In this document: positions 8,208 to 26,471 of the stretch, one piece after another | How positions within the stretch are numbered: position 1 is the first letter of the stretch | Layout of the letters: each line of letters starts with the position of its first letter | Assembly: GCF_002257665.1 (NCBI RefSeq) | Contig: NZ_MQWB01000010.1 | Location: 1-64,000, forward strand | DNA from: Rubricoccus marinus | Lineage (GTDB): Bacteria; Bacteroidota; Rhodothermia; Rhodothermales; Rubricoccaceae | Reading direction: 5' to 3' | DNA: 64,000 nucleotides | Notes under the pieces: generated by a model | Seen by the model: only the letters and a program-made list of their open reading frames with translations | The model's database searches: none | Told to the model about the DNA's origin: nothing | Position numbers and translations under genes: made by a program

Positions 8208-9370
8208 TGCCGGCCACCACCGCCCCACGCACCCGCTCCATCGCGCGCTCGCCTCTGGCGGAGGGCGCCGCCGTCGGCTTCGGGCCGGGAGCGGCCCGGC
8301 TCCGCCCGCAGGGCGTGCCCGGCGCGCCCGACTGCACCGTCCTCACCGACCCGATCCGATTCGGTCACGGCGAACTCCTGGCCGAACTCGCCGAGCGCAC
8401 CAAGGTCGGCCGCCACACGCTGCTGATCGGCGCCGAGGGCATCGGCAAAACGCGCATCCTCGAAGACCTCGCGGCCGTCGTCGCAGGGCACAAGGTCCTC
8501 CTCGACCCGGCCGAGCAAAAGACCGTCCGCCGCAGATACGTCACGATGCCCCAGAAGCGAGGCGAGGCTTACACCCTCGTCTACGTCGCCGAGGCCGGGC
8601 CGCACGGGCGGCTCGTCGACTCCCTCGCCGAGGCCTTCCACGAGCTCGGCATCCTCGCGCTGCCCGGCATCCCGCTCCCCATGCGCGCCGCCGCCTGCGC
8701 CGAGTACGCCTGGGCCGAGGTCAAAAAGCTCCTCCGGACCGTCGCCGACCGGCAGGAAGCCGTCGTGGCGTCCCTCCACGACCTCGCCGGTGGGGGCCGC
8801 GCGCCGCGCCTCGTCGTCGTCATCGACGCGCTCGACCGCGCGACCCCCAGCCAGGGCCTCTTCCTCCGCGAGATCCAGCAACGCGCCACCATCGTCGGCG
8901 CCATCCGGAGCATCCCGCCGTCGCGCTCGATGCGGATGTTCTTCGCCACCTTCGGCCAGATCCGGGTGCGCCCGCTGGACCCCCGCCACATCGCGGCGCT
9001 CTTCGAGTACTTCCTCCAGCGCTACGGCATCACGTGCGCCGACGTGCACCACTACCGCCGCGAGGTCATCCGACGCGCCGAGGGCAACCCGGCCGCCATG
9101 CGCGCGATGATGCACGACGGCGCGCAGTCCAAGCTCGTGACGAGCCAGGACGTGCGCGACCTCCAAGCCCGGGACGACGCGCCCTTCTTCAACCTCGGCC
9201 TCATCTACGTCTTCTTCCTCATCGGCCTCGGCGCGCTCCGGGTGCTCATGATCGGCGTCCGCAACACCGACCTCTACATCATCCTCACGCTGCTCACCGT
9301 CCTGGGCTACCTGATTTTCCGCGTCTACCGGGTGTTCTTCATGTTCCAGCCCAAGCCCGAGGCGAAGTAG
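8207..9370 (+). CDS. Membrane-anchored P-loop ATPase (AAA/STAND-like)
   Basis: Protein of 387 residues. A P-loop (LLIGAEGIGKTRIL, about residues 75-88) and a Walker B strand (RLVVVIDALD, about 204-213) define an AAA/STAND-type ATPase domain. Its C-terminus carries two transmembrane helices (FNLGLIYVFFLIGLGALRV and IILTLLTVLGYLIFRVY), so the ATPase should hang from the inner membrane facing the cytoplasm. The ATG overlaps the previous stop; the in-frame sequence further upstream overlaps another gene and is not coding. It could energise the envelope proteins encoded around it. This resembles no specific named family I can point to. Confidence 0.75.
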   Translation: MPATTAPRTRSIARSPLAEGAAVGFGPGAARLRPQGVPGAPDCTVLTDPIRFGHGELLAELAERTKVGRHTLLIGAEGIGKTRILEDLAAVVAGHKVLLDPAEQKTVRRRYVTMPQKRGEAYTLVYVAEAGPHGRLVDSLAEAFHELGILALPGIPLPMRAAACAEYAWAEVKKLLRTVADRQEAVVASLHDLAGGGRAPRLVVVIDALDRATPSQGLFLREIQQRATIVGAIRSIPPSRSMRMFFATFGQIRVRPLDPRHIAALFEYFLQRYGITCADVHHYRREVIRRAEGNPAAMRAMMHDGAQSKLVTSQDVRDLQARDDAPFFNLGLIYVFFLIGLGALRVLMIGVRNTDLYIILTLLTVLGYLIFRVYRVFFMFQPKPEAK

Positions 9371-10068
9371 TGCCGCGCCTCGAAGCCACCCCGCACCTGG
9401 CCGGAAGGCCCTCAAGCGCCACCCTTGCGGCGGCGCCACCGCCGGGGCTCTCCCTCCAGTCCGCCTCTGGCGTGGCGCGCGTCGTCGCGCTCCTCACCGT
9501 TCTCCTGGCCGGATGCGCGCCGGGCGACGGCCGGGCCGCGACGACGGACAGAGCCCCCGGCGAGGCCTACACCGTCGAGCGCATCGTCGACGGCGACACG
9601 GTCGTGCTCACCGACGCCAGAGGCCGCGAGGAAAAGGTCCGCGTCCAGGGCATCGACACGCCCGAGACACACGCCTCCTCGAAGCTCGACCGCGACGTGG
9701 CCCGAGCCCAGGGCCAACGCAGCGCGCTCGACCGCGAAGCCATCCGTGCGCTAGGGGCTGGTGCCTCCAGTCATGCCGCCCGCCTCCTACCGCCCGGCGC
9801 GGCCGTCCGCGTGGTGACGGATGATGGGCGGGCACCCGCCCAACGCGACCGCTACGGCCGTCTCGTCGGCACCATCCACGCCACCGACGACTTCGGCCAG
9901 CCCTTCGATTTCGGCGCCCGCATGATCGCCGACGGCTACGCCCACGCCTATGACGGCGGCGGACGCTATCCGCACGAGCGGATGGGCTACTACCGCGCCC
10001 TCCAACGCGAGGCCCGCGCCTCTGGCGCCGGTCTCTGGGCCGACGGCCTGGACGCGCTCGATCCCTAA
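9370..10068 (+). CDS. Thermonuclease-family lipoprotein
   Basis: Secreted nuclease of the staphylococcal nuclease (SNase) fold, 232 residues. It starts with GTG, whose first base is the last base of the upstream stop codon. A signal sequence (VALLTVLLAGC) ends in a lipobox at about residue 50. The SNase domain follows: VERIVDGDTVVL, VRVQGIDTPE with the catalytic Arg and Glu, DRYGRLVG with the second catalytic Arg, and a closing EARASGAGLW. It should degrade DNA or RNA at the cell surface in a calcium-dependent way. It is followed 12 bases later by two more secreted nucleases. Confidence 0.85.
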   Translation: MPRLEATPHLAGRPSSATLAAAPPPGLSLQSASGVARVVALLTVLLAGCAPGDGRAATTDRAPGEAYTVERIVDGDTVVLTDARGREEKVRVQGIDTPETHASSKLDRDVARAQGQRSALDREAIRALGAGASSHAARLLPPGAAVRVVTDDGRAPAQRDRYGRLVGTIHATDDFGQPFDFGARMIADGYAHAYDGGGRYPHERMGYYRALQREARASGAGLWADGLDALDP

Positions 10069-10080
10069 CCCTCGCCGCCC

Positions 10081-12618
10081 ATGGCCGCCTCTCCCCTCTC
10101 GCTCTGCTCCCGGCTCGTGCCTCTGGCGTTCGCCCTGCTCGCGGTCCCCGTCACCGCGCAGACCTACACCGACGACGACCAGACCCTCGTGCTCTTCGAC
10201 GCGATGTGCTGCCAGGCAGGCGACACGCCCATCGACCAGCACGCGCCGGAGATCGGCGAGGCCTGGACGGTCGAGGGCACAGCGGACGACGCGCTCAAGC
10301 CCACCGTCACGTCCAGCCGACTCGCCTTTCAGCCCGGCTCTCCCGCCATCGCCGTGGGCCGGGGGCCGACCGGCGAGCGCACCCTCCGCGCCGTCGTGTG
10401 GGAGCCCCAGGGCCACACCGCCGACGTCACGCTCTACCTCATGGAGCGCTACCGGGACCCCCACAACTACGCCGCGCTCCGGCTCCGCTGGACGGCGACG
10501 GGCAGAACGGTCGCCGTCGATGCCGTCGCCGTCGCCTCTGGCGCCGCGGCGGCACCGGTCGCCCTCGGCACGCTCCCCGCCAGCGGCTACGCCCGGCGCG
10601 TCCCGGTCGTGATCACGAGCGCCCCGTCTTCCACCGGTCACACCTGGACCGTCCACGTAGACGGCGCGGCCCTGCCGACCGCCTCCGTCCCCGGACTCGT
10701 GGGCGCGCCCGCCTTCGGCCTCGCCGCCGACGCGCCCGCGCACCCCCACCCCGACGGTCACCACGCCGCGGTCGAAGACGTGATGGTCCTCGTACCGAGC
10801 GCCCCCGCCACCGTCGTCTGCGACGGGCTCCGAGGCTGGACCGCCGAGAGCTGCATCCGAGGCGCCTTCACCCCCCTCCGGACCTACAACTACGACGAGG
10901 CCCGCGACCACCTCTTCGAGACCGTCTGGGCCTCTGGCGCGGGCGGCGACGAACGCGACGTGGGCGGCCTCTACGGCGGCCTCGTCCGCACCTGGACCCC
11001 GCGCTCGCCGCTCTCGCCGCGCGAGCAGATGCAGGCCCAGGACTTCAACACCGAGCACGTCTGGCCCCGGTCGCGTGGCGCCCAGACCCACCCCTCCACC
11101 GACGGCGCCGCGCACAACGACCTCCACCACCTCGCCCCGGCCTACGGCCCCTTCAACTCCGCCCGCTCGAACCGCGCCTTTGGCGACGACTTCCCCGCGT
11201 CCGACACCCAAAAGTGGCTCCGAAACGCCACCAGCCGCTACAACTCGTCGGGGCCGCCGTCCGACCCGGAGACCTGGAGCCGTGTCGAGTACGATTTCCT
11301 CCGCCAGTCGGACAACGGCGACGGCTGGAAGGAGCTGGACGAGCTCGGCCGCTTCGACGTGCGCCACGCCCTGCGCGGCGACGTCGCGCGCATGGCCGCC
11401 TACTTCCTCACCACCTACCGCATCGAGGCCGAGATGGGCGACGAAGGCCGTGCCTTCATCGACGCCACACTCGATGTGCTTCTCGACTGGCACGAGGCCG
11501 ACCCCGTCGACGACGCCGAGCGCGAGCGGAACGAGCGCGTGTACCGCATCCAGGGCAACCGCAACCCCTTCGTGCTCGACCCGACGCTCATGCGCCGCAC
11601 GTTCTACCAGGGGGCCAACCAGCCGCGCCCACGCGACCTGTGGATCAACGAGGTCCACCACTCCAACAGCGGCGCCGACCAGAACGAGGGCGTAGAAATC
11701 GCAGGCCGCGCAGGGACGGACCTCTATGGCTACCGCGTCTGGGTCTACTCCGGCTACGGGTACGTCTACCAGGTTGACGGCGACGGCACCGACAACTCCC
11801 CTGCCATCGCCTTCCGGGGCACGATCGACGACGAAGGCGGCGGGCTCGGCGCCGTCTGGCAAGGCGCCGAAGGGCTCCGGGGCGGCTGCCAGGGACTCGC
11901 GCTCACCGACCCCGACGGCGCCCTCCTGCAGTTCCTCTCCTACGGCGGCTGCCGGTTCAACGCCACGAGCGGCCCCGTCCACGAGGCCGCCGAACGCCAC
12001 GCCTCTGGCGCGGGGTCGCCCGCGCACCCCGACTCGCTCGCGTGGAGCACCGCCATCCGCGGCCCGCGCCAGGCCGGCGGCACCCACCGCCGCGTCCAGC
12101 AGTGGAGCGAACTCCCACCCGGCCACACCCTCCAGCTCACCGGCGCGGGCTCCGCCTACGCCGACTTCGCCTGGACCGGGCCGCTCCCGCACTCGCGCGG
12201 CCGCCTCAACAGCTGGCAGGCGCCCGCATCCGCCGCCAATCCCGCGAGCGGGTGGGCCTCTGGCGACGCCGTCCCCCTCGGCCTCCTCGCACCCGCCGTC
12301 GACACCGGCCACGACGAAGACGCGCCCCACACACCGCTCGCGGCGCCTCTGGCGCCAGAGGCCGGGGAGTTGACGGTCTCTCGCCCCGCACCCAACCCGG
12401 CGCGCAGCGCGGCCCGCCTGACCGTCTCCGCACCGCCCGGCACCCGCGTCGTGGCGGCGGTCTACGACGCCCTCGGCCGCACCGTCCTGCGCCAGAGGCC
12501 CGTGGGGGCCGTGCTCGGCCTCGACGTGTCGCGCCTCGCCCCTGGCGTCTACACCGTCCGCGTCACAGCGGAGGGCGCCACGCAGGCCGTCACCCGCCTG
12601 CTCACCGTCGCCCGCTGA
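10081..12618 (+). CDS. Secreted endonuclease I-family protein, type IX sorted
   Basis: Multidomain exoprotein of 845 residues. A signal peptide (to about residue 26, ending VTAQ) leads to a beta-rich domain (30-240). An endonuclease I (EndA/NucM-like) domain follows at about 265-510, with the hallmark FNTEHVWPRS and DLHHLAP...FNSARSNRAFG motifs that hold the metal-bound catalytic His and Asn. A lamin-tail-like segment (LWINEVHHSNSG, about 520-620) comes next. The last ~80 residues (from about 765) are a type IX secretion sorting domain with PNPARSAARL, VYDALGRTV and LAPGVYTVRV. Predicted to be secreted and cell-surface attached. No type IX machinery is encoded in this window. Confidence 0.88.
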   Translation: MAASPLSLCSRLVPLAFALLAVPVTAQTYTDDDQTLVLFDAMCCQAGDTPIDQHAPEIGEAWTVEGTADDALKPTVTSSRLAFQPGSPAIAVGRGPTGERTLRAVVWEPQGHTADVTLYLMERYRDPHNYAALRLRWTATGRTVAVDAVAVASGAAAAPVALGTLPASGYARRVPVVITSAPSSTGHTWTVHVDGAALPTASVPGLVGAPAFGLAADAPAHPHPDGHHAAVEDVMVLVPSAPATVVCDGLRGWTAESCIRGAFTPLRTYNYDEARDHLFETVWASGAGGDERDVGGLYGGLVRTWTPRSPLSPREQMQAQDFNTEHVWPRSRGAQTHPSTDGAAHNDLHHLAPAYGPFNSARSNRAFGDDFPASDTQKWLRNATSRYNSSGPPSDPETWSRVEYDFLRQSDNGDGWKELDELGRFDVRHALRGDVARMAAYFLTTYRIEAEMGDEGRAFIDATLDVLLDWHEADPVDDAERERNERVYRIQGNRNPFVLDPTLMRRTFYQGANQPRPRDLWINEVHHSNSGADQNEGVEIAGRAGTDLYGYRVWVYSGYGYVYQVDGDGTDNSPAIAFRGTIDDEGGGLGAVWQGAEGLRGGCQGLALTDPDGALLQFLSYGGCRFNATSGPVHEAAERHASGAGSPAHPDSLAWSTAIRGPRQAGGTHRRVQQWSELPPGHTLQLTGAGSAYADFAWTGPLPHSRGRLNSWQAPASAANPASGWASGDAVPLGLLAPAVDTGHDEDAPHTPLAAPLAPEAGELTVSRPAPNPARSAARLTVSAPPGTRVVAAVYDALGRTVLRQRPVGAVLGLDVSRLAPGVYTVRVTAEGATQAVTRLLTVAR

Positions 12619-12623
12619 CCCCG

Positions 12624-14171
12624 ATGCGCCTCCCCCTGATCGCAGCCGCCGTCCTCACGTGGGTCCCGCACGCGGCCTCACAGCCCTCACCCCCGCGCGC
12701 CGTCGCGCGCGAGATCCCCAGCGAGCGCCGGCGAGCGGATCCCCCATCCCCCGCGAACTCAGCGAGCCTGATCTACCCCGGCCTCACCGGAGACGAGCTG
12801 ACGGCCGCGCTGGCCGCGACCTACGCGCCCGTCTCCACCTACCCCTACGACCGCGCCCGCGACACCCTCTTCGCCGCCGTCCACATGGAGCGCGATGCGG
12901 GTGGCACCTCGACCGACTCGCTCCGCGGCTTCTACAGCGGGCACGCCGTCTGGATCGACCCGGCGCTCGACCCGACGGCAGCGGCCTGGGCCTCCTCCCC
13001 TCGCTTCTCCACCGAGCACCTCTGGCCCGAGAACCGGGGCGCGAGCGAGGGCACCGACGCGCACCGCGACATGCACCACCTCGCGCCGGTCATGCAGTCG
13101 GTCAACTCGTCCCGCAGCGATCACCCGTTCGGCGAGATCGTTGACACAGACGCCGACCGCTGGTGGGGTCCCGACGGCACCACGCGGACCGCTCCGCCGC
13201 CACTTCGAGTCCGCGACCTCTACACCGAGAAGCGCAACGGGCCGAGCCCCGTCCTCGAACCGCGCGAGGACCGAGCGGGCGACGCCGCCCGCGCCATGTT
13301 CTACGTCTGGACCGTCTACGGCCCCTCGGGCGCGGACCACCTCGACGCCGCGTTCTGGACCGCGCAGCGAGACGTGCTCCTCGACTGGCACGAGCAGGAC
13401 CCGCCAGGCCAAACGGAGATCGAGCGGACGCTGACGATCGAGGCCCACCAGGGCACGGCCAACCCCTTCGTGCTCGACGCCACGCTCGCCTCGCGAGCCT
13501 TCGGCCCGCCGCCTGTCCTCGTCACACTCGCCTCCTTCACTGCCGAGCATACCACCTCTGGCGCCCGCATCGCGTGGAGCAAGTCGGCCGAGGCGGGCGT
13601 CGCCTCGTTCCGCATCGACGGCCGCGCCGACGTGTTCGGGTCGCCCTGGACGACGTGGGGCGCGGTCGACGCCAGAGGCCAGCCGTCGGCATACGGCCTG
13701 GACGTCGCTCGTGCGGCCTCTGGCGGCCCCCTCGCCGTCGGCGCGTACCGGGTTGGCCTGACCGCCATCGATACCACCGGCGACGAAACGCCGCTGGGCG
13801 ACGTCGGCCTCTCCATCGACGCCTCGACCGACAGCGAAAACGGTCCCGACGCCCAACCGTTCACCCTCGCGGCGCCCACCCCGAACCCGGCGGGCAGTCG
13901 CACCACGGCCACGCTCACGCTCGCCCGCCCTGCCCACGTGCGTGCCGCGGTCTACGACGCGCTCGGGCGCGAGGTGTCCGTCGTCTACGACCGGCTCGCT
14001 GGGCCGGGGACAGACCCCGGTGGCCGCGTGGACCTCCAGGTCGACACGAGCGGCCTGGCGGCGGGCGTCTACGCCCTTCGGGTGACCGTGAGCGGCCACG
14101 GTGCCGCCGTAGACGGCTCCGCCGTGGACAGCTCCGCTGCCCAGGCGCGGCTGTTCACCGTCTCCCGTTGA
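12624..14171 (+). CDS. Second secreted endonuclease I-family protein, type IX sorted
   Basis: Exoprotein of 515 residues starting 5 bases after the previous gene. A signal peptide (to about residue 20) is followed by a short Arg/Pro stretch encoded by a C-rich repeat, then the endonuclease I domain: FSTEHLWPENRG (about 128) and DMHHLAP...VNSSRSDHPFG. A linker fibronectin-like domain (from about 305) and a type IX sorting tail (TPNPAGSRTTATL, VYDALGREVS, LAAGVYALRV) complete it. It is a shortened relative of the preceding protein, probably from tandem duplication followed by divergence. Confidence 0.87.
   Translation: MRLPLIAAAVLTWVPHAASQPSPPRAVAREIPSERRRADPPSPANSASLIYPGLTGDELTAALAATYAPVSTYPYDRARDTLFAAVHMERDAGGTSTDSLRGFYSGHAVWIDPALDPTAAAWASSPRFSTEHLWPENRGASEGTDAHRDMHHLAPVMQSVNSSRSDHPFGEIVDTDADRWWGPDGTTRTAPPPLRVRDLYTEKRNGPSPVLEPREDRAGDAARAMFYVWTVYGPSGADHLDAAFWTAQRDVLLDWHEQDPPGQTEIERTLTIEAHQGTANPFVLDATLASRAFGPPPVLVTLASFTAEHTTSGARIAWSKSAEAGVASFRIDGRADVFGSPWTTWGAVDARGQPSAYGLDVARAASGGPLAVGAYRVGLTAIDTTGDETPLGDVGLSIDASTDSENGPDAQPFTLAAPTPNPAGSRTTATLTLARPAHVRAAVYDALGREVSVVYDRLAGPGTDPGGRVDLQVDTSGLAAGVYALRVTVSGHGAAVDGSAVDSSAAQARLFTVSR
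12712..12752 (+). repeat. Interspersed C-rich spacer repeat, copy 3
   Basis: A GCGAGCGCCGGCGAGCG core followed by GATCCCCCATCCCCC, related to 2042-2109 and 6499-6556. Here it sits in frame inside a gene, just behind the signal peptide of the second endonuclease I protein. Confidence 0.5.
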
Positions 14172-15237: not shown

Positions 15238-15401
15238 CGCAGTCAGGGGGGCAACCAGGTGTGGGTGCAGCCAGAGAGGTACACGATCAGGATACGTGGG
15301 CTCGGCCCCAAGCGGTCCACCGGGGTAGCGGTCTGCACTCGCTCACCGCCCGCACCTCTCCACGCTCTATCGACCGGAATCGCCGTCGCCCCTTGACTTC
15401 A

Positions 15402-15444
15402 GCCCAACAACAGCCGCGGCCTATACGGCTACGTGGAGTTGGGC
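15402..15444 (-). repeat. attC-like hairpin ending cassette 5 (very short)
   Basis: GCCCAAC and GTTGGGC bound the site, matching the RYYYAAC/GTTRRRY consensus better than the other sites. Inside, AGCCG pairs with CGGCT, with unequal spacers of 3 and 7 bases, as expected of R and L boxes. The total is only 43 bp, shorter than usual attC sites, and it overlaps the 3' end of the cassette gene. It may be a minimal attC, a truncated one, or a simple hairpin. Confidence 0.4.
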
Positions 15445-16017
15445 GCATTGCGGCGCTTCTAGCCGCTCTGAAAAGATGCGCCGGGCGTGCAGGTCAGCTA
15501 CGATCTCTTCATGGACCACCCCGACTGGCTGGCGGTTCTTCCGGCGGTACTGCTCTGCGTAGTGGCGGCCGAGCTCATGGGCGAGCACGGCGTAGAAGAA
15601 CCAGACCGTCATGAACCCGTCTTCCGGCCACCGAACCTCCAAGCCGCCTTCCACCTCTCGTACATCGGCATAAAAGCGGTGGAGGCTGTTGAGGAGCCAT
15701 GAGCCTGTACGGGGCAAGTGCCAGACCTCCGGCACGGAGTAGAGGAGAATCGCTTTCTCGTCGGGCAGATAGACTCCGAACGGACGACCGATGTCGCCCC
15801 CGCGTGCCCGTAACTCGATCCGGCTGAGGCCATAGAGGTACTTATCCGGGACGCGGCGAAGCACGCCACGGAGAATCCCCTTGTCGAGGGGGTGAACGTC
15901 ACCGGGATACGGCTTCCGCTCGATAAGTCGCGGCAGAGCGGCGAGTCCTGCGGCGTCGCGGGCGTGCCTCCGACCAGCTATTATCTCGGGAGGGTCGGTA
16001 TGGAAGCTCTTAGACAA
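15421..16017 (-). CDS. Cassette 5 protein, zincin-like with altered motif
   Basis: Protein of about 198 residues, assuming the TTG start at 16017, placed 18 bases from the core of attC4 as in the other cassettes; the frame is open further upstream into attC4. Near the C-terminus it reads FFYAVLAHELGRHYAEQYRR followed by HEEIVADLHA. Zinc peptidases commonly have HELGHHY here; in this copy the second zinc-binding His is Arg (CGC instead of CAC). The trailing E-x2-AD pattern resembles the third ligand. Either the protein has lost activity or the next His compensates. Function otherwise unknown. Confidence 0.6.
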   Translation of the reverse strand: MSKSFHTDPPEIIAGRRHARDAAGLAALPRLIERKPYPGDVHPLDKGILRGVLRRVPDKYLYGLSRIELRARGGDIGRPFGVYLPDEKAILLYSVPEVWHLPRTGSWLLNSLHRFYADVREVEGGLEVRWPEDGFMTVWFFYAVLAHELGRHYAEQYRRKNRQPVGVVHEEIVADLHARRIFSERLEAPQCAQLHVAV

Positions 16018-16034
16018 GGCGAGGCGGAGTAGCC

Positions 16035-16156
16035 GTGTAACGAGGGGTCGCCCAGCGGCACAGGGCAGACTTACGGCGGGGCGAGGCAATGTAGACGCCA
16101 GCGGGCGGACGGGGCAAAGCGGCCGAGCCCTGTGTCCGCTGGAGCGGCGGGTTAGC
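16035..16156 (-). repeat. attC4 recombination site
   Basis: Outer ends GTGTAAC and GTTAGC; inside, CCAGCGGCACAGGGC faces GCCCTGTGTCCGCTGG, giving a long imperfect stem with one extra base, as in attC sites. It separates cassettes 4 and 5. The stop codon of the cassette 4 gene lies in the GCTAAC core. Confidence 0.75.
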
Positions 16157-16511
16157 TGGCCGGGCTCGCATCCTCTGGACGCTCGTAGCCCAGCTCCTCG
16201 TACACCCACCGCTGGAAGTAAGCCTCCTGCGCGCTCGGATCGTCGGGCAGGAGCAACCACTCCCGAGCGGCGCGGCGGATGGCTTCATAAGCCTGCTCGG
16301 TCTCCTCCGGCCTCACTTCCACTCGGTCCGTGAGCGCTCCCCAGATGAGCCACGTCGGCCACATGATGTCCGGGTACTCTGCGGCGTGTCCGAACGCCTG
16401 GCCCCAGATCCGCCACCCGGCGTCGTAGGGGTCCACCTCGCCCGCAACGATGAGTCTCAAGTCATCCTCGATCCGTCGCTGTACGTCCGCTAGCGGGTCC
16501 TTCTGAGACAT
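16152..16511 (-). CDS. Cassette 4 hypothetical protein
   Basis: Acidic protein of 119 residues from MSQKDPLADVQ, with several Trp (DAGWRIWGQAF, WPTWLIWGAL) and a helical region RPEETEQAYEAIRRAAREWL. No family is recognised; it looks cytoplasmic. A GTG 9 bases upstream is a possible earlier start. Its TAA stop is embedded in the attC4 core. Confidence 0.65.
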   Translation of the reverse strand: MSQKDPLADVQRRIEDDLRLIVAGEVDPYDAGWRIWGQAFGHAAEYPDIMWPTWLIWGALTDRVEVRPEETEQAYEAIRRAAREWLLLPDDPSAQEAYFQRWVYEELGYERPEDASPAS

Positions 16512-16528
16512 TCGGTGCACGGAGGCCA

Positions 16529-16652
16529 GCTAACAGTTTGCCACTCAGCCGCACAACGCGGCAGAGCGGTTGGACGAGGCAACGTAGACGTTGGTAGTGG
16601 AACGAGGCAAGAGCGCTGAAGCGATGTGTCGGCCTGCAGTGGCGGGTTCTAC
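16529..16652 (-). repeat. attC3 recombination site
   Basis: Ends are GCTAAC and GTTCTAC. The left arm GCTAACAGTTTGCCACTC matches the complement of the right arm GCAGTGGCGGGTTCTAC through a shared GCCACT box, with unequal spacers. It separates cassettes 3 and 4. Confidence 0.75.
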
Positions 16653-16953
16653 GGCCCCGGCAGCAGGGAGACCTTGAGCGGCTCCCCTTTGGATTCTGGA
16701 TTCCACCCTGTGCTCAACCGAGACGGATAGCGGACTCGACGACCCGAGGAGTCACCGTCAGGGGCACCGAGGCAGCCCGCCTCGGCATGTCTAGCCACGG
16801 GTCCCGCCAACCGACATCTACCGCCAGCCGCTGGTTCTGGGTATCGGCGAGGTTGATCTCTACCAGTCCCGAGGACGTGTTCAGCCTCCATCGGTACTCG
16901 TTGCCGTCCACCGTGATAGGCCGAAAGCCCCTCTTGCCTTTGGGACGAGCCAT
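16649..16953 (-). pseudogene. Cassette 3 gene with a probable frameshift
   Basis: The open frame from the ATG at 16953 gives 79 residues (MARPKGKRGFRPITVDGNEY and onward) ending in SAIRLG and a stop at 16714. A one-base shift just before that stop continues as LSTGWNPESKGEPLKVSLLPG and ends with TAG at 16649, exactly inside the attC3 core, where the stops of the neighbouring cassettes also fall. The sense of the extended C-terminus and the stop position argue that one base was lost near 16718. The product resembles a small conserved protein of unknown function (beta-rich, W-P-E-S-K-G ending). A sequencing error is the alternative. Confidence 0.6.
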
Positions 16954-16969
16954 GAGTGTGGATGGGGCC

Positions 16970-17096
16970 GTAGAACAGTTTGCGATTCAGCCGCCGAGAG
17001 GTGACGGCGCGGCGGTGGGAAGAAGCTATGACTGACGGTGTGCTTGGACGCGCCGAGACGCTGACCCTCTCGGTCGGCCTGCAAGCGCGGGTTAGC
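16970..17096 (-). repeat. attC2 recombination site
   Basis: Ends are GTAGAAC and GTTAGC. The left arm GTAGAACAGTTTGCGATTC is nearly identical to attC3. Inner CCGAGAGG faces CCTCTCGG. It separates cassettes 2 and 3; the TAA of the cassette 2 gene is inside the GCTAAC core. Confidence 0.78.
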
Positions 17097-17538
17097 GCGC
17101 CCGGGCATTGTGGTTGAGTTTGGCCTGCTCATAATCGAACGTCCACTCGCCCGCCTCCGCGTACCGCATGAGGTCGTCAACAGTGACCGTGTACGGCCCA
17201 CTCCTCGCGCTACGACGAGATAACCAGCGGTAGCCTGCGACGAGACCGATAGCAGAAACGGGCACGGTCCACAGCGAGATAGAGCCCGCGACGACCACAG
17301 CGCCAAGGATGATGCCGACGAGCGGCGAACCCGCTTCTGGACCGAAGTGCGGATCGGACTGGAACCGGGTGATGTCTACCTCGAAGGCATCTGCGAACGA
17401 CTCGACGAACTCCCACCCGTCGGCCCCGGCCATGCCAAGGTCCTCCGTCAGTCGGGACGACGGCCAGATCTCGTGCTCGGGCACGCCTTGGCGCTCCGAA
17501 ATCAGGGCCTTCAACCGTTCCAGTCGAGCGGAGTCCAT
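17092..17538 (-). CDS. Cassette 2 protein, DUF1493-like (acyl-carrier-like)
   Basis: Protein of 148 residues. The first ~75 residues (LKALISERQGVPEHEIWPSS, RLTEDLGMAGADGWEF, DPHFGPEA) match the DUF1493 family, whose members look like acyl carrier proteins: the GMAGADG turn takes the place of the DSLD phosphopantetheine site, and Ser is absent. Two hydrophobic stretches (about 80-105) suggest membrane attachment. The C-terminus (YTVTVDDLMRYAEAGEW) is also typical. The ATG at 17538 is 10 bases from the cassette boundary; an upstream in-frame start lies within attC1 and is unlikely. Confidence 0.72.
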   Translation of the reverse strand: MDSARLERLKALISERQGVPEHEIWPSSRLTEDLGMAGADGWEFVESFADAFEVDITRFQSDPHFGPEAGSPLVGIILGAVVVAGSISLWTVPVSAIGLVAGYRWLSRRSARSGPYTVTVDDLMRYAEAGEWTFDYEQAKLNHNARAR

Positions 17539-17547
17539 TGGAGGCGC

Positions 17548-17684
17548 GCTAACAGAATGCGGCTCACCCGCGAAGGGCACCGACCGCCAGAGGTGAGTCA
17601 GAGCGGAGGATACGCCTCTGGCGCCAGAGGCCGCACGAAGTGAAAACGCCAGAGCCCTTCGTCGGAGTGCAGCCGTGGGTTAGC
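17548..17684 (-). repeat. attC1 recombination site
   Basis: Outer GCTAAC and GTTAGC, then CGGCT facing AGCCG with spacers of 6 and 3 bases. Further in, CGAAGGGC faces GCCCTTCG, and the loop carries CCTCTGGCGCCAGAGG, a palindromic pair of the nine-base word seen throughout the left half. It closes cassette 1; the gene stop lies 11 bases before it. Confidence 0.8.
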
Positions 17685-17694
17685 CCGCCCGGGC

Positions 17695-18204
17695 TCAGTT
17701 GCCGAACCAGAACACAGCCCGGACACCCTCGGGAGGACCTAACTCGCGCATAGCGGAGACGGTCGTACCTAGGAAGTGCTTACACCAATGCGAGAGAGGG
17801 CGCTCCTCGGTGACAGACTCTCCCGAAGGGCGGTGGTAGCTCCCAGTGAGTGGTTGCGACCAGTCGAAGGCCTCTAACTCTGCCAGTAGAAGCCACGACA
17901 TCCCGAAGAGGTCCGGCGGGTCGTTGTCGCAATCGAATGCCGCCCGCGTCTCCGCGCTGACGTCGTCTGGGAGCCCCCGGCTGTAGGGGAGTGACCTGCC
18001 CCCCGGACTGAGTTGCCAGATAGGCCCTTGGAGCAACCTGAAAAGGGTGCGGTTGCGGCCCTCGTATAGGGCCTCACGCTCCAAGCCTGGCACGGGGTAG
18101 GGAAAGTCGTCGTAGGGATACTGGATTGGGACAAGGGGCTCAGCCCGCTCCCAGAGTCCATTCGCGCCCCGCCTCTCCACGCACAAGCAAATGTCCATTC
18201 CCAT
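17695..18204 (-). CDS. Cassette 1 hypothetical protein
   Basis: Protein of 169 residues in the first cassette, so probably the most strongly expressed. It begins [12 protein letters not shown] and contains [39 protein letters not shown] and VRAVFWFGN. This order recalls an uncharacterised family found in phages and cassettes (C-D-I-H start, RNY-LFA, RGLP-D, FWFDN end). The function is not known to me. Starts at 18204 or two codons later are equally possible. Confidence 0.7.
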
Positions 18205-18217
18205 GGGTTCTCAGGCG

Positions 18218-18224
18218 GTAGAAC
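18218..18224 (-). other. attI-like core site
   Basis: GTTCTAC on the minus strand, the same heptamer that ends attC3. It lies between the integrase gene and the first cassette gene, 14 bases before the cassette 1 start, so insertion of new cassettes is expected at G/TTCTAC. The attI region probably extends to about 18280. Confidence 0.6.
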
Positions 18225-18283
18225 AAGTATTGGGCCGCGCCAGGCGTGATAAAAACGGAGGCGCCGCGCGGGATAACATGCGG

Positions 18284-18312
18284 AGTGTACCGCGCGCGCC
18301 CTTGCCCGTCAA
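18284..18312 (-). promoter_or_regulatory. Candidate cassette promoter Pc
   Basis: On the minus strand TTGACG (18312-18307) is followed after exactly 17 bases by TACACT (18289-18284), close to the bacterial sigma-70 consensus. Transcription would begin near 18277, cross the attI core and run into the cassette array. It lies outside the integrase coding region, which begins at 18365. Confidence 0.7.
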
Positions 18313-18364
18313 TAGCTTAGCCTACATCGCCTCGTTTTTATCCGGCCCCCCGCCCGGTATCGAC

Positions 18365-19435
18365 ATGCCCCTCCCCTCCCCTACCCCGCCAGAGGCCTCT
18401 GGCGACTCGGCTTCCGACACCCCGGCCTCTGGCGCCTCCGCCTCTGGCGGCCCGGTGCTGCTCGACGCCGTCCGCACCGCCTGCCGCCTCCGCCACTACT
18501 CCATCCGCACCGAGGCCGCCTACGCCTCTTGGGCCAAGCGCTTCTGCCTCTTCCACCGCGACACGGACGGCCGCCCCCGCCACCCCGAGACGATGGGCGA
18601 GGCCGAGGTCGTCGCCTTCCTCGCCCACCTCGCCGAGGAGCGGGACGTCGCCTCCAGCACGCAGAACCAGGCCCTCGCCGCGATCCTCTTCCTCTACGAC
18701 GCCGTGCTCGGCGCGCCTCTGGCGGACCTCGGCGCCTTCCCCCGCGCCAAGCGGCCCAAGCGGCTCCCCGTCGTGCTCACCCGCGCCGAGACCGAGGCCG
18801 TGCTCTCCCGCCTCGACGGCACGCCCCGCCTCGTCGCCAGCCTGCTCTACGGCTCCGGGCTCCGCCTCCTCGAAGCCCTCCGCCTCCGCGTCAAGGACGT
18901 CGGCCTCGCCGAGGGGCAGGTCACCGTCCGCGAGGGCAAGGGCGACCGCGACCGCGTGACCATGCTCCCGGTGGCGCTCGAGGAGCCGCTCCGCCTCCAG
19001 TTGGAAGTCGTCCGCGCGCTGCACGCCCGCGACCGCGCCGGGGGCTACGGCGCGGTCTACCTCCCGAGCGCGCTCGCGCACAAGTACCCGAACGCCGCCT
19101 ACGAGACCGGCTGGCAGTACGTCTTCCCCGCCGCGCGCCGTTCGGTCGACCCGCGCAGTCCTGAGGCGGGCGCCGTGCGGCGGCACCACCTCGGCGAGAG
19201 CGCGGTCCAGAAGGCCGTCCGCACAGCCGCGAAGGCCGCAGGCGTCGAGAAGCCCGTCAGCCCCCACGCCTTCCGGCACAGCTTCGCCACGCACATGCTC
19301 GAGCGCGGGGCCGACATCCGGACCGTGCAGGAGCTGCTCGGGCACAAGGACGTGCGCACGACCGAGGTCTACACCCACGTGCTCAACCGCGGCGTGCGCG
19401 GCGTCACCAGCCCGCTCGATGGGCTTACCGCCTGA
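18365..19435 (+). CDS. intI: Integron integrase
   Basis: Tyrosine recombinase that inserts and excises cassettes by joining attI with folded single-stranded attC sites. It has 356 residues; the catalytic set is present ([50 protein letters not shown]). The diagnostic IntI insertion is clear at about residues 225-285: [18 protein letters not shown], then [19 protein letters not shown] and [15 protein letters not shown]. The end [14 protein letters not shown] is also typical. The ATG at 18365 was chosen because upstream in-frame codons lie in attI and the first cassette. The first ~30 residues are Pro/Ser/Ala rich and encoded by several copies of the CCTCTGGCG repeat. Confidence 0.95.
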
Positions 19436-19470: not shown

Positions 19471-19824
19471 TTACCGGGCGCTCTGTCGCACCAACCGCGC
19501 CACGTACTCCGCCGGGCTCAGCCCCGCCGCCGCCGCCTGCACCTTTAGTGCCCGCTTGTCCTCCGGGTCCATCTTCAGCTGCAGCGACACCCGCCGCGCC
19601 CCGTCCGCACGCACGTACGACCCGTCGCTCTGCCGGACGTGCCCGCCCGGCTCGGCCTCTCCCCTACCCCGCTTCACGGACGGAGCCTCTGGCGCGCGAG
19701 GCGGCGCGGCCTCTGGCCTAGCAGCCTCTGGCGATGGTTCTTCTGGCGATGGTGCTCCTGTCGCCGCCCCTCCAGAGGCCTCCGCCAGCAGATCGGTCAA
19801 CGAACTCCGGTTACGCTTCGACAT
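19471..19824 (-). CDS. Small ParB-like partition protein (ribbon-helix-helix)
   Basis: Protein of 117 residues overlapping the end of parA by 14 bases. Residues 20-75 are a Pro/Ala/Glu-rich disordered segment, and the C-terminal ~42 residues (RRVSLQLKMDPEDKRALKVQ and onward) look like a ribbon-helix-helix DNA-binding domain. With the ParA just upstream it should act as the centromere-binding partner and may also repress the operon. Its likely targets are the palindromes between parA and rep. Confidence 0.75.
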   Translation of the reverse strand: MSKRNRSSLTDLLAEASGGAATGAPSPEEPSPEAARPEAAPPRAPEAPSVKRGRGEAEPGGHVRQSDGSYVRADGARRVSLQLKMDPEDKRALKVQAAAAGLSPAEYVARLVRQSAR

Positions 19825-20599
19825 GGTCCCGCTGGGGCAACTCGTTCAGAAAATGGGCGACGGCCGTGTAGTCCTCCGCGCCGCGCCCCCCGGGGTCGTA
19901 CTCGTAGATCGTCTGCCCCGCGCTCGGCGCCTCCGCCAGCCGCACCGTCGTCCGCACGCCGGGCGAGACCCGCCCCGGAAACGTCGCCTCCAGCGCCTCC
20001 GCCACCTCGCGCGTCACGCGGTTCCGGCTGTCCACCCGCGTCGGCACCACCGCGAAGACGGGCGGCATTACCCCCCGGGGCTCCAGCCGCCGCTGCGTCT
20101 TGAGCAGGTCCGAGAGCCCCACCACCGCCAGGGGCTCCGGCGTCACCGGCACCACCAGCCCGCCTCTGGCGCCACCCGAGATCAGGTCCGCCACCAGCGC
20201 CGAGGCCGCCAGCGTCAGCACGCCCAGCTCCGGCGGGCAGTCGATCACCAGCGCCCCGTACGCCCGAAACGCCTCCGCCTTGTCGGCCAGACGGTACACC
20301 CCGTCCGCCGGGGGCAACGCCGCCGCCACCTGCGCCACGTCACCCGATGACGCCACCAGGTCGAGGTGGGGCCGCGCCTCCACGGTCACGTCGCCCAACG
20401 CCGCCTCGTCACGCAGCAGCCGAGCCGTCGCCGACGGCACCTCGGGCGCGATGCCCAGGCACCGAGCCGTGTGCCCCTGCGGGTCGAGGTCGAGGAGCAC
20501 CGTCCGCACGCCGTCGGCGGCGTAGCGGGCGGCGAGGTGGACGGCCGTCGTCGTTTTGGCCGTCCCCCCTTTCTGATTCAAGACGCAGAGCGCGAGCAC
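19811..20599 (-). CDS. parA: ParA-type partition ATPase
   Basis: MinD/ParA family ATPase of 262 residues that segregates plasmids by forming nucleoid-bound gradients. The deviant Walker A motif NQKGGTAKTTTAVHLA lies at residues 8-23; LLDLDPQGH and LVIDCPPELGVL form Walker A' and B. There is no N-terminal helix-turn-helix, so it belongs to the short type Ib class, which pairs with small RHH partner proteins like the one downstream. The start is GTG. An ATTGC-rich palindromic segment lies 30-80 bases upstream. Confidence 0.92.
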   Translation of the reverse strand: MLALCVLNQKGGTAKTTTAVHLAARYAADGVRTVLLDLDPQGHTARCLGIAPEVPSATARLLRDEAALGDVTVEARPHLDLVASSGDVAQVAAALPPADGVYRLADKAEAFRAYGALVIDCPPELGVLTLAASALVADLISGGARGGLVVPVTPEPLAVVGLSDLLKTQRRLEPRGVMPPVFAVVPTRVDSRNRVTREVAEALEATFPGRVSPGVRTTVRLAEAPSAGQTIYEYDPGGRGAEDYTAVAHFLNELPQRDHVEA

Positions 20600-22321: not shown

Positions 22322-22358
22322 GGCGATCTCGTTGCGCCCCAAAGAGATGCAGTCGCAA

Positions 22359-22788
22359 AGGTGGTCGCCTATGGGATGACAGGTGGTCACCTATGGGACG
22401 TGAGGTGGTCGTCTATGGGACGAAAGGTGGTCGTTTGTGGGATCGCGACCTCGACAGGTGGTCGTTTATGGGACGGCTCCCGAAAGTCTTGTCCTCCAAC
22501 GCGTTACCCACGCTGTCAGGGACGCAATTGCACGGAGGTGGTCGCCTATGGGATGACAGGTGGTCGTTTGTGGGATCGCGCTCGCTTCAGGTGGTCGTCT
22601 ATGGGACGCATAGCGCCAGAGGCGGCGCGCGACCGGCCTTCAGGGAGGCCCAGAGAGGGCCCGGCGGGCGTCTCCCCGTCCAAAGGTGGTCACCTATGGG
22701 ATAGGCCGCCCCGTTCCTTGCGGGCCGTTCTGAGCAGCCGTACCCTGACCGGGCGGCTCGCCCCCGCCGCTCCCACAAACGACCACCT
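22359..22788. repeat. Iteron array of a plasmid replication origin
   Basis: Ten 18-bp copies of AGGTGGTCGYYTATGGGA (variants CAC, TTTGTG). Direct copies start at 22359, 22381, 22403, 22425, 22456, 22536, 22558, 22589 and 22684; an inverted copy occupies 22771-22788. The first four are spaced exactly 22 bp apart, two helical turns. This is the usual layout of an iteron-controlled origin; the inverted copy next to the initiator gene would be the autoregulatory operator. Confidence 0.9.
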
Positions 22789-22897
22789 AAAGGTCGGGCG
22801 GGCGGATCCGCGGCCCGTCTCCCCTCCGCGCGCTCCCCCTCGACCCATCCAGACCTCGCTCCTCCTCGGCCTCGACGACCCCGCCCGGCCCGGCGCC

Positions 22898-24244
22898 GTG
22901 GAGGTCAAGAAGCACGTCGGCGCGGTCCACTCCAAGGCGCCCCTCTCGCTCCTCCAGCGCAAGGTCGCCAACGTGCTCCTCCTCAACGCCTTCGAGGAGC
23001 TGGCCGACGACCGCGTCGAGCGCCACGAGATCGCCCTCCGCGACCTCGCCCGCATCTGCGGCTTCGACTCCAACAACTGGGAGTACCTCCAGGACGCCCT
23101 CCGCGCCCTCACCGACGTCCGCATCGAGTGGAACGTCCTGGACAAGGACGGCAAGAAGCGGTGGGGGAGAAGCGCCTACCTCGCCGAGGTCGAGATGGTC
23201 GAGCGCTCCGGCACGGCCTCCTACGTCTACCCGCCCACGCTCCGCCGCCAGCTCGCCAACCCCGCCGTCTACGCCCGGATCAACCTCGCCATCCAGGCCC
23301 GCTTCGGCTCCGGCTACGCCCTCGCGCTCTACGAGAACTGCGTCCGCTTCCGCAAGGTCGGCACCACCGGCTTCCTCCCGCTCGACACCTGGCGCGGCCT
23401 CCTCGGCGTCGAGGAGGGGCAGTACCCCGAGTACAAGTACCTCAACAAGCAGGTCCTCAAGCGCGCCGCCGACGAGGTCAACCGCTACTCGGACATCCGC
23501 GTCGAGATGGAGACCAAGAAGGAGGGCCGCTCCGTCGCCGCCCTCCGCTTCACCGTCGCCGAGGCGGGCGACGAAGCGGTCCAGGCCTCTGGCGCCGTCG
23601 GCCCCGCCATCCGCCAAGCCCTCGGCGCCGTCCCCGACCCCCGCTCGCTCGCCCCCGAGCCCGCCGAGGTCATCGCCGACCACCCCCTCGCCGACCTCCA
23701 GCGCCGCCTGCTCACCTTCGGCCTCTCCGAGGCGCAGGCCCTCGACCTCTCCACCGAGTTCGACCCCGCGCGCGTCGCCACCAACCTCGACCACGTCGAA
23801 GCCGAGATCGACAAGGGCGAGGTCAAGAACGTCGCCGCCTTCACCGTCGCGGCCGTCCGGGGCGACTACGCCGCGAGCGCCGGGCCGCCCGCGGTCGTCC
23901 GCCAGGCCGAGGAGAAAAAAGCCGACGCCAAGCGCGCCCGCGATGCCCAACAGCGTCAGCGCGAGGAGCGCAAGGCGCAAGCGGCGCAGTCCGAGCGCGA
24001 GAGGGGAGAGGCCCGCGACCGCGCGCTCGACGAAGCGTTCGCCGCCCTCCCTCAGGCCGAACAGGACGCCCTCACCGACGAGGCCGTCGCCCGCATGAGA
24101 GCGGATGCGCCCCCCATCCACGCCTGGTACCGCGAGGCCGCCGAGGCGGGCACGCCAGAGGCCGACATGCGCCCCGCCGTGCTGTCCACCCTCCGCGCCT
24201 TCCGGCGGGACCTCGTCGCCGCGATCTCGTCGCCGAGCAGCTAG
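22898..24244 (+). CDS. Plasmid replication initiator, Rep_3/RepB type
   Basis: Initiator that binds the iterons just upstream and opens the origin. The N-terminal winged-helix region is typical of Rep_3 proteins: KKHVGAVHSKAPLSLLQRKV, ALRDLARICGF, DALRALTDVRIEWN and FGSGYALALYENCVRFRKVG. The second winged helix includes FLPLDTWRGLLGVEEGQYPE, LNKQVLKRAADEVNRYSD and an E-M-E-T-K-K-E-G-R segment. The last ~190 residues (from about 240) are a Glu/Ala/Arg-rich helical extension, making it longer (448 residues) than usual initiators. The frame is open through the iterons, so the start is uncertain: GTG 22898 gives the family's usual N-terminus, and TTG 22718 is possible. Confidence 0.85.
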   Translation: MEVKKHVGAVHSKAPLSLLQRKVANVLLLNAFEELADDRVERHEIALRDLARICGFDSNNWEYLQDALRALTDVRIEWNVLDKDGKKRWGRSAYLAEVEMVERSGTASYVYPPTLRRQLANPAVYARINLAIQARFGSGYALALYENCVRFRKVGTTGFLPLDTWRGLLGVEEGQYPEYKYLNKQVLKRAADEVNRYSDIRVEMETKKEGRSVAALRFTVAEAGDEAVQASGAVGPAIRQALGAVPDPRSLAPEPAEVIADHPLADLQRRLLTFGLSEAQALDLSTEFDPARVATNLDHVEAEIDKGEVKNVAAFTVAAVRGDYAASAGPPAVVRQAEEKKADAKRARDAQQRQREERKAQAAQSERERGEARDRALDEAFAALPQAEQDALTDEAVARMRADAPPIHAWYREAAEAGTPEADMRPAVLSTLRAFRRDLVAAISSPSS

Positions 24245-24369: not shown

Positions 24370-25941
24370 CTACGCTCGGACAACCGCCACCTCCTCCCAC
24401 CGCGTCGTGTACCGCGGGCTCATCCGCTCCCGACGCATCTCCCACGCCGGCGCGCCAGAGGCCTCCCGCGCCCGCCGGAGCGCCTCTGGCGCCCCCTGGC
24501 TCGCCACCACGACCGCCCGCTTCCCGTACTTCCGGTTCGCCGCGTCCAGCGCCTCCATCAGCGCCTGACGCCTCTGGCGGCCCGCCGCCGTGTCGCCGTC
24601 CGTGATCGCGCGCCGGCCGCCAGAGGCCGGCCGGCCGCCAGGGGCCGGGAACAGCCCCCGCTGCTCCGTCCCCACCGGCCGGATCTCCGCCAGCATCACG
24701 CCCGCTTTCCGGTAGCGGTAGGGCACGCCTCTGGCGTCGCACCCGGCATGCGCCCGCTCCAGACACCGCCTTGCCGCCCCGACCAGCGCCGCCGAGTCCG
24801 CCGTCGCCTCGGCCAGCACCTCGTCCCCGCTGCCCGACCGATGCGGCCCCGCCCCGAACCGCTTCGTCGTCACGAACGCCGAGATCCGACCCGCGACGAG
24901 CCCCTCCGCCCGCAGCTTCTCCGCCGCCCGCGCCGCGTGCGTCGCCACGGCCTGGGAGATCGCCGCCAAGTCGCCCGTCGGCTCGCCAAAGCTGCGCGAT
25001 TTGACAAGCGTCTGCCGCGCCACCGGCGCGTCCTCCAAGGGCAGACACGACACGCCCCTGAGCTCCATCGCTGTCCGGAGTAGCACCACGTTGAACCGGC
25101 TCCGCAAGAGGCCGTCGGGCAGCGCCGCGAGCCCCAGCGCTGTCGTCGCGCCCAGCGCCTCCAGGCTCAAAGCCCACCGGCGCCCCACGCCCCACACGTC
25201 GCCGACCGGCATCGACCGCAACCAGCGCTCGCGCTCCGGGTGCCCCCACAGGCACACGCACGGCTCCTCGCCTCTGGCGAGCCGCACCTTCGCCCACTCG
25301 CTCGCCGCCTTGGCGAGCGTCTTCGTCTCCGCCCACGAGACCCGCACCGGGATCCCCGTCCACCGCAGCACCCGCGCCCGGATCTCGCGCGCCCGCCGCT
25401 CCATCTCCGCGCAGACCGCCTCTGGCGTCCCGTCGAGAGCCTGTCCCGGACCCCGACCCGGGATCGGCACGCTCAGAAATGCCTCGTCCACGCTGTACAC
25501 CTCCACGTCCGGCGTGAACGTCTCCAGGCACGCCATCACCCGGCGGCTCATGTCGCCGTACAAGGTGTAGTTGGACGAGAACACCCGCACGCCCTGCGTC
25601 GCCAGCTCGCGCCTGTGCTTGAAAAACGGCGCGCCCATCGGGATGCCGAGGTCCTTCACCTCCTGCGAGCGTGCGATGATGCAGCCGTCGTTGTTGGAGA
25701 GCACGGCCACGGGCACGCCCTCCAGCGACGGGTCGAAGACCCGCTCGCACGAGCAGTAGAACGCCGAGCAGTCCACGAGCGCGAACAGCCGCCGCGGCCG
25801 CCCCTCGCCAGAGGCCCGGACGCCAGAGGCCCGGACGCCAGAGGCCCCTGGCGCTCGCGCAGCCTCGTCCGAGCCCAGAGGGCAGGGGAGGGGCGCCCCT
25901 TCTGCTACTGGCCACTCCCCACTCCCCACTGGCCCGCTCAC
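24370..25941 (-). CDS. umuC: Error-prone DNA polymerase V catalytic subunit
   Basis: Y-family polymerase for translesion synthesis, working with processed UmuD. It has about 523 residues: LFALVDCSAFYCSCERVFDP (palm start), LSNNDGCIIARSQEVKDLG, YGDMSRRVM, the catalytic VEVYSVDEAFLSV, GIPVRVSWAETKTLAKAASE, and the C-terminal UmuC tail ending SPRYTTRWEEVAVVRA. The GTG at 25941 overlaps the umuD stop (GTGA) and is chosen as start. It adds ~55 residues before the conserved Phe-Ala-Leu, partly coded by a 15-bp tandem repeat (25806-25844); usual UmuC is about 420 residues. umuDC are often plasmid-borne. Confidence 0.93.
   Translation of the reverse strand: MSGPVGSGEWPVAEGAPLPCPLGSDEAARAPGASGVRASGVRASGEGRPRRLFALVDCSAFYCSCERVFDPSLEGVPVAVLSNNDGCIIARSQEVKDLGIPMGAPFFKHRRELATQGVRVFSSNYTLYGDMSRRVMACLETFTPDVEVYSVDEAFLSVPIPGRGPGQALDGTPEAVCAEMERRAREIRARVLRWTGIPVRVSWAETKTLAKAASEWAKVRLARGEEPCVCLWGHPERERWLRSMPVGDVWGVGRRWALSLEALGATTALGLAALPDGLLRSRFNVVLLRTAMELRGVSCLPLEDAPVARQTLVKSRSFGEPTGDLAAISQAVATHAARAAEKLRAEGLVAGRISAFVTTKRFGAGPHRSGSGDEVLAEATADSAALVGAARRCLERAHAGCDARGVPYRYRKAGVMLAEIRPVGTEQRGLFPAPGGRPASGGRRAITDGDTAAGRQRRQALMEALDAANRKYGKRAVVVASQGAPEALRRAREASGAPAWEMRRERMSPRYTTRWEEVAVVRA
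25806..25850 (-). repeat. Three tandem copies of CGCCAGAGG-type word
   Basis: CGCCAGAGGCCCGGA repeated at a 15-bp period (25806, 25821, 25836) within the N-terminal extension of umuC, encoding ASGVRASGVRASG. Most concentrated example of the nine-base word scattered across the left half. Confidence 0.7.
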
Positions 25942-26471
25942 CGGCCCCGCCGCGCGTCGTGCAGCACGTACGTCACCACGCCCCACACCACCAGGTCCTG
26001 CCCCTCGCGCAGCTCGATCGACGGGTACGCCGGGTTCGCCGCGAGCAGCGCCGTCCGCTTCCCCTGCCGCAGGAACCGCTTGACGGTCAGCTCCCCGTCG
26101 ACGGCCGCCACGACGACATCGCCAGAGGCCGGCTCGACCGCCCGGTCCACCAGCAGCAGGTCGCCCGAGAGGATCCCCGCGCCCGTCATCGACTCCCCAT
26201 CGGCCCGCATCCAGTAGCACGACGGCGAGAGCGCGCCGGTCAGTTCGTGGAGGTCCAAGTGCCCCTCCACGTAGTCGTCGGCAGGGGAGGGGAAGCCCGC
26301 CGAGACGCGCGAGAGCACGAGCGGCAACGGCGGTCCCGGCCCGACCTCGCTCGCCGGGACGTAGGCCGTGATCACCAGCTCGCCGGGCGTCGCGATCGGC
26401 GCCGACGCGCCGTCGCCAGAGATGCCGGAAGCGGCGCCGTCGCCCGAGGATGTGTCGAAGTGGAAGGGCAT
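25938..26471 (-). CDS. umuD: UmuD, self-cleaving subunit of polymerase V
   Basis: LexA-like protein of 177 residues. The autocleavage site (RVSAGFPSPADDY, Ala-Gly) is at about residues 64-76. The Ser-Lys dyad is in DGESMTGAG and DGELTVKRF. After RecA-stimulated cleavage it activates UmuC. Chosen start is MPFHFDTSSG; about 40 residues longer than the classic protein because of an Ala/Gly-rich insert. It overlaps umuC by 4 bases. No convincing LexA operator was found upstream. Confidence 0.92.
   Translation of the reverse strand: MPFHFDTSSGDGAASGISGDGASAPIATPGELVITAYVPASEVGPGPPLPLVLSRVSAGFPSPADDYVEGHLDLHELTGALSPSCYWMRADGESMTGAGILSGDLLLVDRAVEPASGDVVVAAVDGELTVKRFLRQGKRTALLAANPAYPSIELREGQDLVVWGVVTYVLHDARRGR

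Follow-up and report, generated by a model that had tools for sequence, protein, structure and literature searches.

A complete, functional-looking integron with host-type attC sites on a circular plasmid of Rubricoccus marinus

We analyzed a 64,000-nt window of DNA (positions 1 to 64,000 of contig NZ_MQWB01000010.1, RefSeq assembly GCF_002257665.1) from Rubricoccus marinus SG-29T, a host that a preliminary description made from the letters alone had correctly placed as Rhodothermota-like. Between positions 15,402 and 19,435 the window carries an integron integrase gene (intI), a predicted attI site within a leader that also holds a promoter-like site (Pc), and five short minus-strand genes that point away from intI and are interspersed with attC recombination sites. 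Judged from its sequence, this locus is, with high confidence, a complete integron that looks functional and lies on a circular 139-kb plasmid with Rep3 and ParA. Its parts are listed below; R'' and R' denote the attC cores, and related genomes carry G labels.

18365–19435, plus strand: intI, integron integrase of 356 amino acids (aa); ATG 18365 is the most likely start within an open reading frame (ORF) spanning 18191–19435, and the conserved domain begins at 18458.
18218–18340, minus strand: attI/Pc leader, with 70%–80% identical copies ahead of arrays in G238, G235, G236 and the R. marinus chromosome.
18284–18312, minus strand: Pc-like promoter TTGACG-17-TACACT reading into the array, the sole promoter-like site in 15300–18500.
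18271–18277 (GTTATCC) and 18247–18255 (TTTTTATCA), minus strand: IntI-site-like repeats in the leader.
18218–18224, minus strand: attI core GTTCTAC, the final block of the leader conserved in five loci; crossover predicted between G and TT.
17695–18204, minus strand: cassette 1 gene (169 aa), with homologues in one chromosomal cassette and in phrog_10141 (function unknown).
17547–17685, minus strand: attC1 (R'' GGCTAAC, R' GTTAGCG), from fold and covariance model; carries the host-specific motif CCTCTGGCG.
17092–17538, minus strand: cassette 2 gene, 148 aa; acyl-carrier-protein-like/DUF1493-like N-terminus (weak, sub-cut-off matches) and a hydrophobic segment.
16970–17097, minus strand: attC2 (R'' CGCTAAC, R' GTTCTAC), from fold and covariance model.
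16714–16953, minus strand: cassette 3 gene, 79 aa; no known family.
16528–16652, minus strand: attC3 (R'' GTAGAAC, R' GTTAGCT), from fold and covariance model.
16152–16511, minus strand: cassette 4 gene, 119 aa; no known family.
16035–16157, minus strand: attC4 (R'' AGCTAAC, R' GTTACAC), from fold and covariance model.
15421–16017, minus strand: cassette 5 gene (198 aa), starting with TTG and encoding a HELGRH motif; G226 has a lone cassette whose protein is 87% identical.
15411–15428, minus strand: truncated attC remnant of cassette 5 (~18 bp) at the array end, where the G226 homology stops inside the G226 attC.

The integrase scored 432 bits against TIGR02249 in a profile search (cut-off 265) and aligned over its whole length with Vibrio cholerae IntI4 (PDB 2A3V; 290 bits). 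The alignment includes the IntI-specific insertion (KYPNA...WQYVFPA) noticed in the preliminary description, and that observation is confirmed. The catalytic residues R167, K192, H301, R304, H327 and Y336 are all intact, and the protein has both the extra domain and the active-site residues that characterize the tyrosine recombinase of a complete integron. It is 78%–83% identical to integrases of same-family relatives (79%–84% over the domain) and clusters with three of them in the IntI tree (support 97), which indicates that the integron platform is native to this bacterial family. The best match to a mobile class on plasmids is IntI3 (54%), and the best 5000 plasmid records all fall below 60%; near-identity to a class integrase, the mark of mobile classes 1–5, was not found.

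Bottom-strand folding of the intergenic segments gave the attC form four times, with 7-base cores, an unpaired stretch and a stem in which single unpaired bases recur along one arm at almost constant intervals. In the four window sites taken together with three from the chromosome, 97.1% of stem cells are paired and double compensatory changes occur in 12 of 20 pairs; none of 500 shuffled controls scored as high. Since sites of the window itself had gone into the covariance model R1, the test was made instead with R2, which derives only from attC sites of other genomes. R2 called exactly the four attC sites on the plasmid (E values 5e-28 to 6e-17; next match 0.07). A complete integron needs at least two sites with R''/R' cores, a foldable bottom strand and extrahelical bases, and four were found. 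An Rfam scan gave no match, which says nothing against attC. The earlier count of five genes each followed by an attC-type repeat therefore stands for the genes and for four of the repeats, the fifth gene having a remnant of about 18 bp near 15411 in place of an attC. Plasmid sites are as near to chromosomal ones (similarity 0.59) as to each other (0.56), and the mixed attC origin expected of mobile classes is not seen. One attC family is common to plasmid and chromosome, and it occurs in each of the nine genomes sampled from the bacterial family and also in the order.

The putative attI lies between intI and the first cassette, where a core of this kind had been noticed earlier, and the leader ends in the GTT core at five loci. 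Leader copies stand ahead of intI in G238, G235 and G236, and the position of the Pc-like site, which matches the promoter consensus, is kept in the five aligned leaders, with a weaker -35 element in G235. The intI gene reads away from the array and has parA, iterons and rep as neighbours, as originally described, and intI, the putative attI, the Pc-like site and attC together support the original call of a complete integron.

IntI would bind attI and the folded bottom strand of attC hairpins and cut the GTT core between G and TT, with circular cassettes being inserted or excised, and Pc in the leader would drive expression of the first cassettes. Because the first TTNNNN of an inserted cassette is that of its own circle, R'' should fit the cassette's own 5' junction better than its own 3' R'. 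R'' matched the circle R' at 7 of 7 positions in 15 of 18 cassettes (mean 6.8, as compared with 4.8 for the site in place), and none of 100,000 random pairings was as good. Plasmid cassettes 2–4 match their junctions perfectly; cassette 5 could not be assessed. Such a pattern is the mark left by recombination of one cassette at a time.

Over 633 bp, cassette 5 shares 87.7% identity with the lone cassette in G226, a member of another family in the same order. The similarity begins at the core G at 16041, which is the predicted cut point, and stops inside the attC, which is kept in G226. Cassette 5 has clearly moved between lineages, and the matching boundaries and the R''/R' circle match are the marks of cassettes as discrete mobile units. 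Within 16 kb around the lone cassette neither intI nor a second attC was found, which fits insertion at a non-classical site (attG) of the type reported previously (PMC12901181). Other R. marinus cassettes also occur in G235 and G224, and the arrays of relatives thus differ. The plasmid array is unlike every related array seen, genes 1 and 5 having been searched through the order and genes 2–4 against the loci fetched. The preliminary description had made its case depend on covariance models calling attC and on the five genes not being fixed in related arrays, and both are what was found.

The age of the cassettes was approached through the nine-base motif CCTCTGGCG, often present as the palindrome GCCTCTGGCGCCAGAGGC, which behaves like cyanobacterial HIP1. 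It has 15,555 copies in the 4.43-Mb R. marinus genome as compared with 188 of a reversed control (~80-fold); eight relatives have only about 30–160 copies apiece, the congener 157, and the motif is essentially R. marinus-specific. Examples in the window lie at 18390–18450 and, within attC1, at 17585–17630. In the chromosomal stretches read, its density is 11/kb in non-coding and 3/kb in coding DNA, a 3.6-fold difference. Cassette bodies hold one copy in 11.6 kb (40.8 expected at the genome mean), and the GC content of the window's cassette genes is 63%–66% as compared with 72%–74% for intI, parA and rep; both features indicate that the cassette genes are recent arrivals. R. marinus attC sites contain 14 copies in 3.3 kb (4.2/kb, against 0.09/kb in cassette bodies), located in the sites at window 17547–17685 and at loci L038 12085–12209, L136 9998–10136, L140 4149–4278 and L141 2834–2972. 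We offer as a suggestion only that attC and gene may differ in history, the attC sites being older residents than the cassette genes; the idea is weakened by the general richness of non-coding DNA in the motif and by the location of some attC copies in degenerate edge sites.

The R. marinus genome comprises 15 contigs (4,430,441 bp). The contig that contains the window (139,488 bp; C10) ends in an exact 232-bp copy of its start that has no other copy on the contig, and this overlap indicates closure to a 139,256-bp circle. Its maintenance genes are as follows.

22781–24244, plus strand: rep, Rep3 replication initiator, from family matches; start codon unsure, the ORF from 22361 running through the iterons.
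22354–22710, plus strand: iterons, at least 7 copies of AGGTGGTCGYCTATGGGA by repeat count.
19811–20599, minus strand: parA, plasmid partition ATPase, from family matches; 88% identical in the congener G234.
19471–19824, minus strand: ribbon-helix-helix (RHH) protein, likely the ParA partner; weak RHH matches, homologue beside parA in G234.

The congener G234 carries parA (88% identical), the RHH gene (60%), rep (59%), an integron integrase (67%) and attC sites on one contig, and a G238 contig has intI beside a Rep3 rep at one end and attC sites at the other. On account of these layouts, plasmid-borne integrons seem to recur in the family. Circular closure, Rep3 and the recurrence of the parA and RHH partition genes on the congener's intI contig support the plasmid location originally proposed, which is not the chromosomal one that marks sedentary chromosomal integrons. 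The accompanying idea that the integron may be able to spread fared less well: no relaxase or conjugation gene was found among about 25 plasmid proteins in a scan that was not exhaustive. Along the plasmid, CCTCTGGCG is near chromosomal density at 1–30 kb, around the integron, and nearly gone over most of the remainder, from window 30000–64000 to 139 kb (0.2/kb in coding DNA); because of this difference the plasmid appears to be pieced together from older and newer segments.

An intact IntI, a conserved attI/Pc leader, four attC hairpins, a build-up by cassette exchange and the occurrence of cassette 5 elsewhere as a discrete unit are thus evident at the sequence level, and from them we infer present-day recombination and Pc activity. 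Several points weigh on the other side. The R'' of cassette 1 (GGCTAAC) mismatches the attI side (TTCTAC), so the insertion history of this cassette is not simple; cassette 5 has lost its own attC; circularity is based on an end overlap in a draft assembly; and no identical cassette was found on both plasmid and chromosome. The mismatched cassette 1 boundary and the truncated last attC, together with the small size of the array (four attC), would suit a frozen integron, with real parts whose recombination has ceased and a relic array carried along on the plasmid. We regard this as unlikely, given that the IntI frame is open with catalytic residues intact and 78%–83% identity to relatives, that the attI leader is conserved, that cassette bodies without the host motif imply an arrival recent on the motif's time scale, and that the array content differs from all related arrays seen.

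That the contig is a chromosomal island or a mis-assembly rather than a plasmid would be in keeping with the draft mate-pair assembly and with the near-chromosomal density of the motif at 1–30 kb, but is very improbable in view of the exact 232-bp end overlap found nowhere else on the contig, the presence of Rep3, iterons and parA, and the recurrence of intI with Rep3, parA and RHH on a congener contig and beside Rep3 on another relative's contig. We give hardly any credence to a recent import of a proteobacterial mobile integron (class 1–5 or a relative). The closest named match to IntI outside the family, a Diaphorobacter integrase at 62%, would speak for such an import, whereas IntI nests with the 78%–83% identical same-family integrases and reaches only 54% to IntI3, and the attC sites resemble the family's chromosomal attC and not proteobacterial ones. 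Because the IntI lineage is family-native and found on chromosomes and plasmids, the element looks like a plasmid-borne integron that is old at the level of the family and draws its cassettes from the pool of that family.

The R. marinus chromosome carries a second complete integron at L038, with four cassettes and an intI 53% identical to that of the plasmid. In its IntI (L038 9700–10713) a G replaces the conserved E of GLRLxE, a position with E in 58 of 62 IntI proteins and G in 3, and the enzyme is possibly impaired. Model R1 called about 20 further chromosomal attC sites, in about six intI-less clusters and as isolated sites. One cluster, next to mscL, has a leader (C1:234753–234908) that shares 74% identity with the plasmid attI/Pc leader over 156 bp, with two cassettes and no integrase (together L136 1754–2760, C1:234753–235759); copies of the palindrome GCCTCTGGCGCCAGAGGC bracket it. 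At the mscL locus of five relatives no integron or such array was found nearby. For this reason the notion that the orphan leader is the scar of an intI departing to the plasmid was rejected, and a lineage-specific insertion is more likely. From the shared attC family we infer cassette exchange between the plasmid and the chromosomal integron and attC clusters. More tentatively, and we lean somewhat against it, the three may form a three-tier network in which the plasmid IntI would serve the orphan chromosomal platform in trans, besides the chromosomal integron and attC clusters; the plasmid would then carry the recombinase for chromosomal landing sites and shuttle family-type cassettes between cells.

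The preliminary remark that few integrons are described outside Proteobacteria understated their number. IntI above the curated cut-off was found in 58 of 198 sampled genomes of the phylum, a complete integron of Salinibacter ruber M1 and an integron on a Gemmatirosa replicon have been published (PMC9024848), Bacteroidota are on a published list of integron phyla (PMC8618304), and two 'integrons' genes appear in the counts of the paper on the R. marinus genome, which leaves the arrays undescribed (PMC5609423). In the collection of papers searched, none pairs the terms 'integron' and 'Rhodothermota'.

The S. ruber M1 integron and sedentary chromosomal integrons in general are the same system, with IntI, attI and attC arrays, a related phylum and one attC family per lineage; what sets the complete R. 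marinus integron apart is its place on a 139-kb plasmid, with five genes and with a second integron in the chromosome. Mobile integrons of classes 1–3 share the plasmid location, short array and intI-attI-Pc layout; in contrast to them, the R. marinus IntI is ~54% identical to IntI3, its attC sites are of one host-type family rather than mixed origins, and no resistance genes were found and no class-defining transposon module was seen beside the integron. The integron on the 1.1-Mb plasmid of Gemmatirosa kalamazoonensis and the integrase on Kovacikia minuta plasmid pB likewise place IntI on a non-Proteobacteria plasmid, but belong to other IntI branches with different attC (two weak matches at most). 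The intI-less chromosomal attC clusters of R. marinus and the G226 lone cassette resemble clusters of attC sites lacking integrases (CALIN) and attG-type lone cassettes (PMC9024848, PMC12901181). One R. marinus cluster, however, keeps an attI/Pc leader homologous to that of the plasmid, which is outside the usual CALIN description. The kind of integron is already known; what stands out is that an integron with host-type attC lies on a plasmid and that the chromosome holds a platform without an integrase.

The mobile integrons that carry resistance genes are believed to derive from chromosomal integrons that relocated to plasmids. Here a natural plasmid integron outside Proteobacteria has attC sites of its own host lineage and no resistance genes found, with the chromosomal pool still in the same cell. 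The type strain is culturable, which makes plasmid–chromosome cassette exchange directly testable, and the host-specific nine-base motif provides an independent marker of cassette genes as newcomers.

Across 114 genomes of the order, the sole match to cassette 1 is a 44% identical relative in R. marinus's own chromosomal cluster; weak matches occur in Deinococcus and Streptomyces plasmids, and none was found in phages. Cassettes 2 and 5 had no match in plasmids. Defence and phage libraries gave phrog_10141 for cassette 1 and otherwise weak matches only. An AlphaFold model of cassette 5 from its single sequence was discarded (mean predicted local distance difference test score 42).

Elsewhere the plasmid carries several Tn3-type transposase genes, resolvases, a tyrosine recombinase and a second replication initiator (RepA_C; L218 1375–15527 and 16802–18208), the Tn3-type transposases lying away from the integron at 121–136 kb. 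A Piwi-domain protein (L041 1276–3657, plasmid 105276–107657) is encoded near genes with SEFIR/TIR-like and nucleotidyltransferase-like translations, possibly a plasmid defence island. The umuC and umuD genes (DNA polymerase V) lie at window 24370–26600, and in G235 umuC and umuD come immediately after the related intI, on a contig of 4.7 Mb; the regions upstream of intI and umuD were compared for a common SOS-type operator, and nothing convincing emerged. Beside the integron, window 9034–14171 appears from its translations to hold two secreted-nuclease-like genes in tandem, whose C-terminal tails are sorting-like, and a staphylococcal-nuclease-like ORF, and a homologue of both is present on G238:C15.

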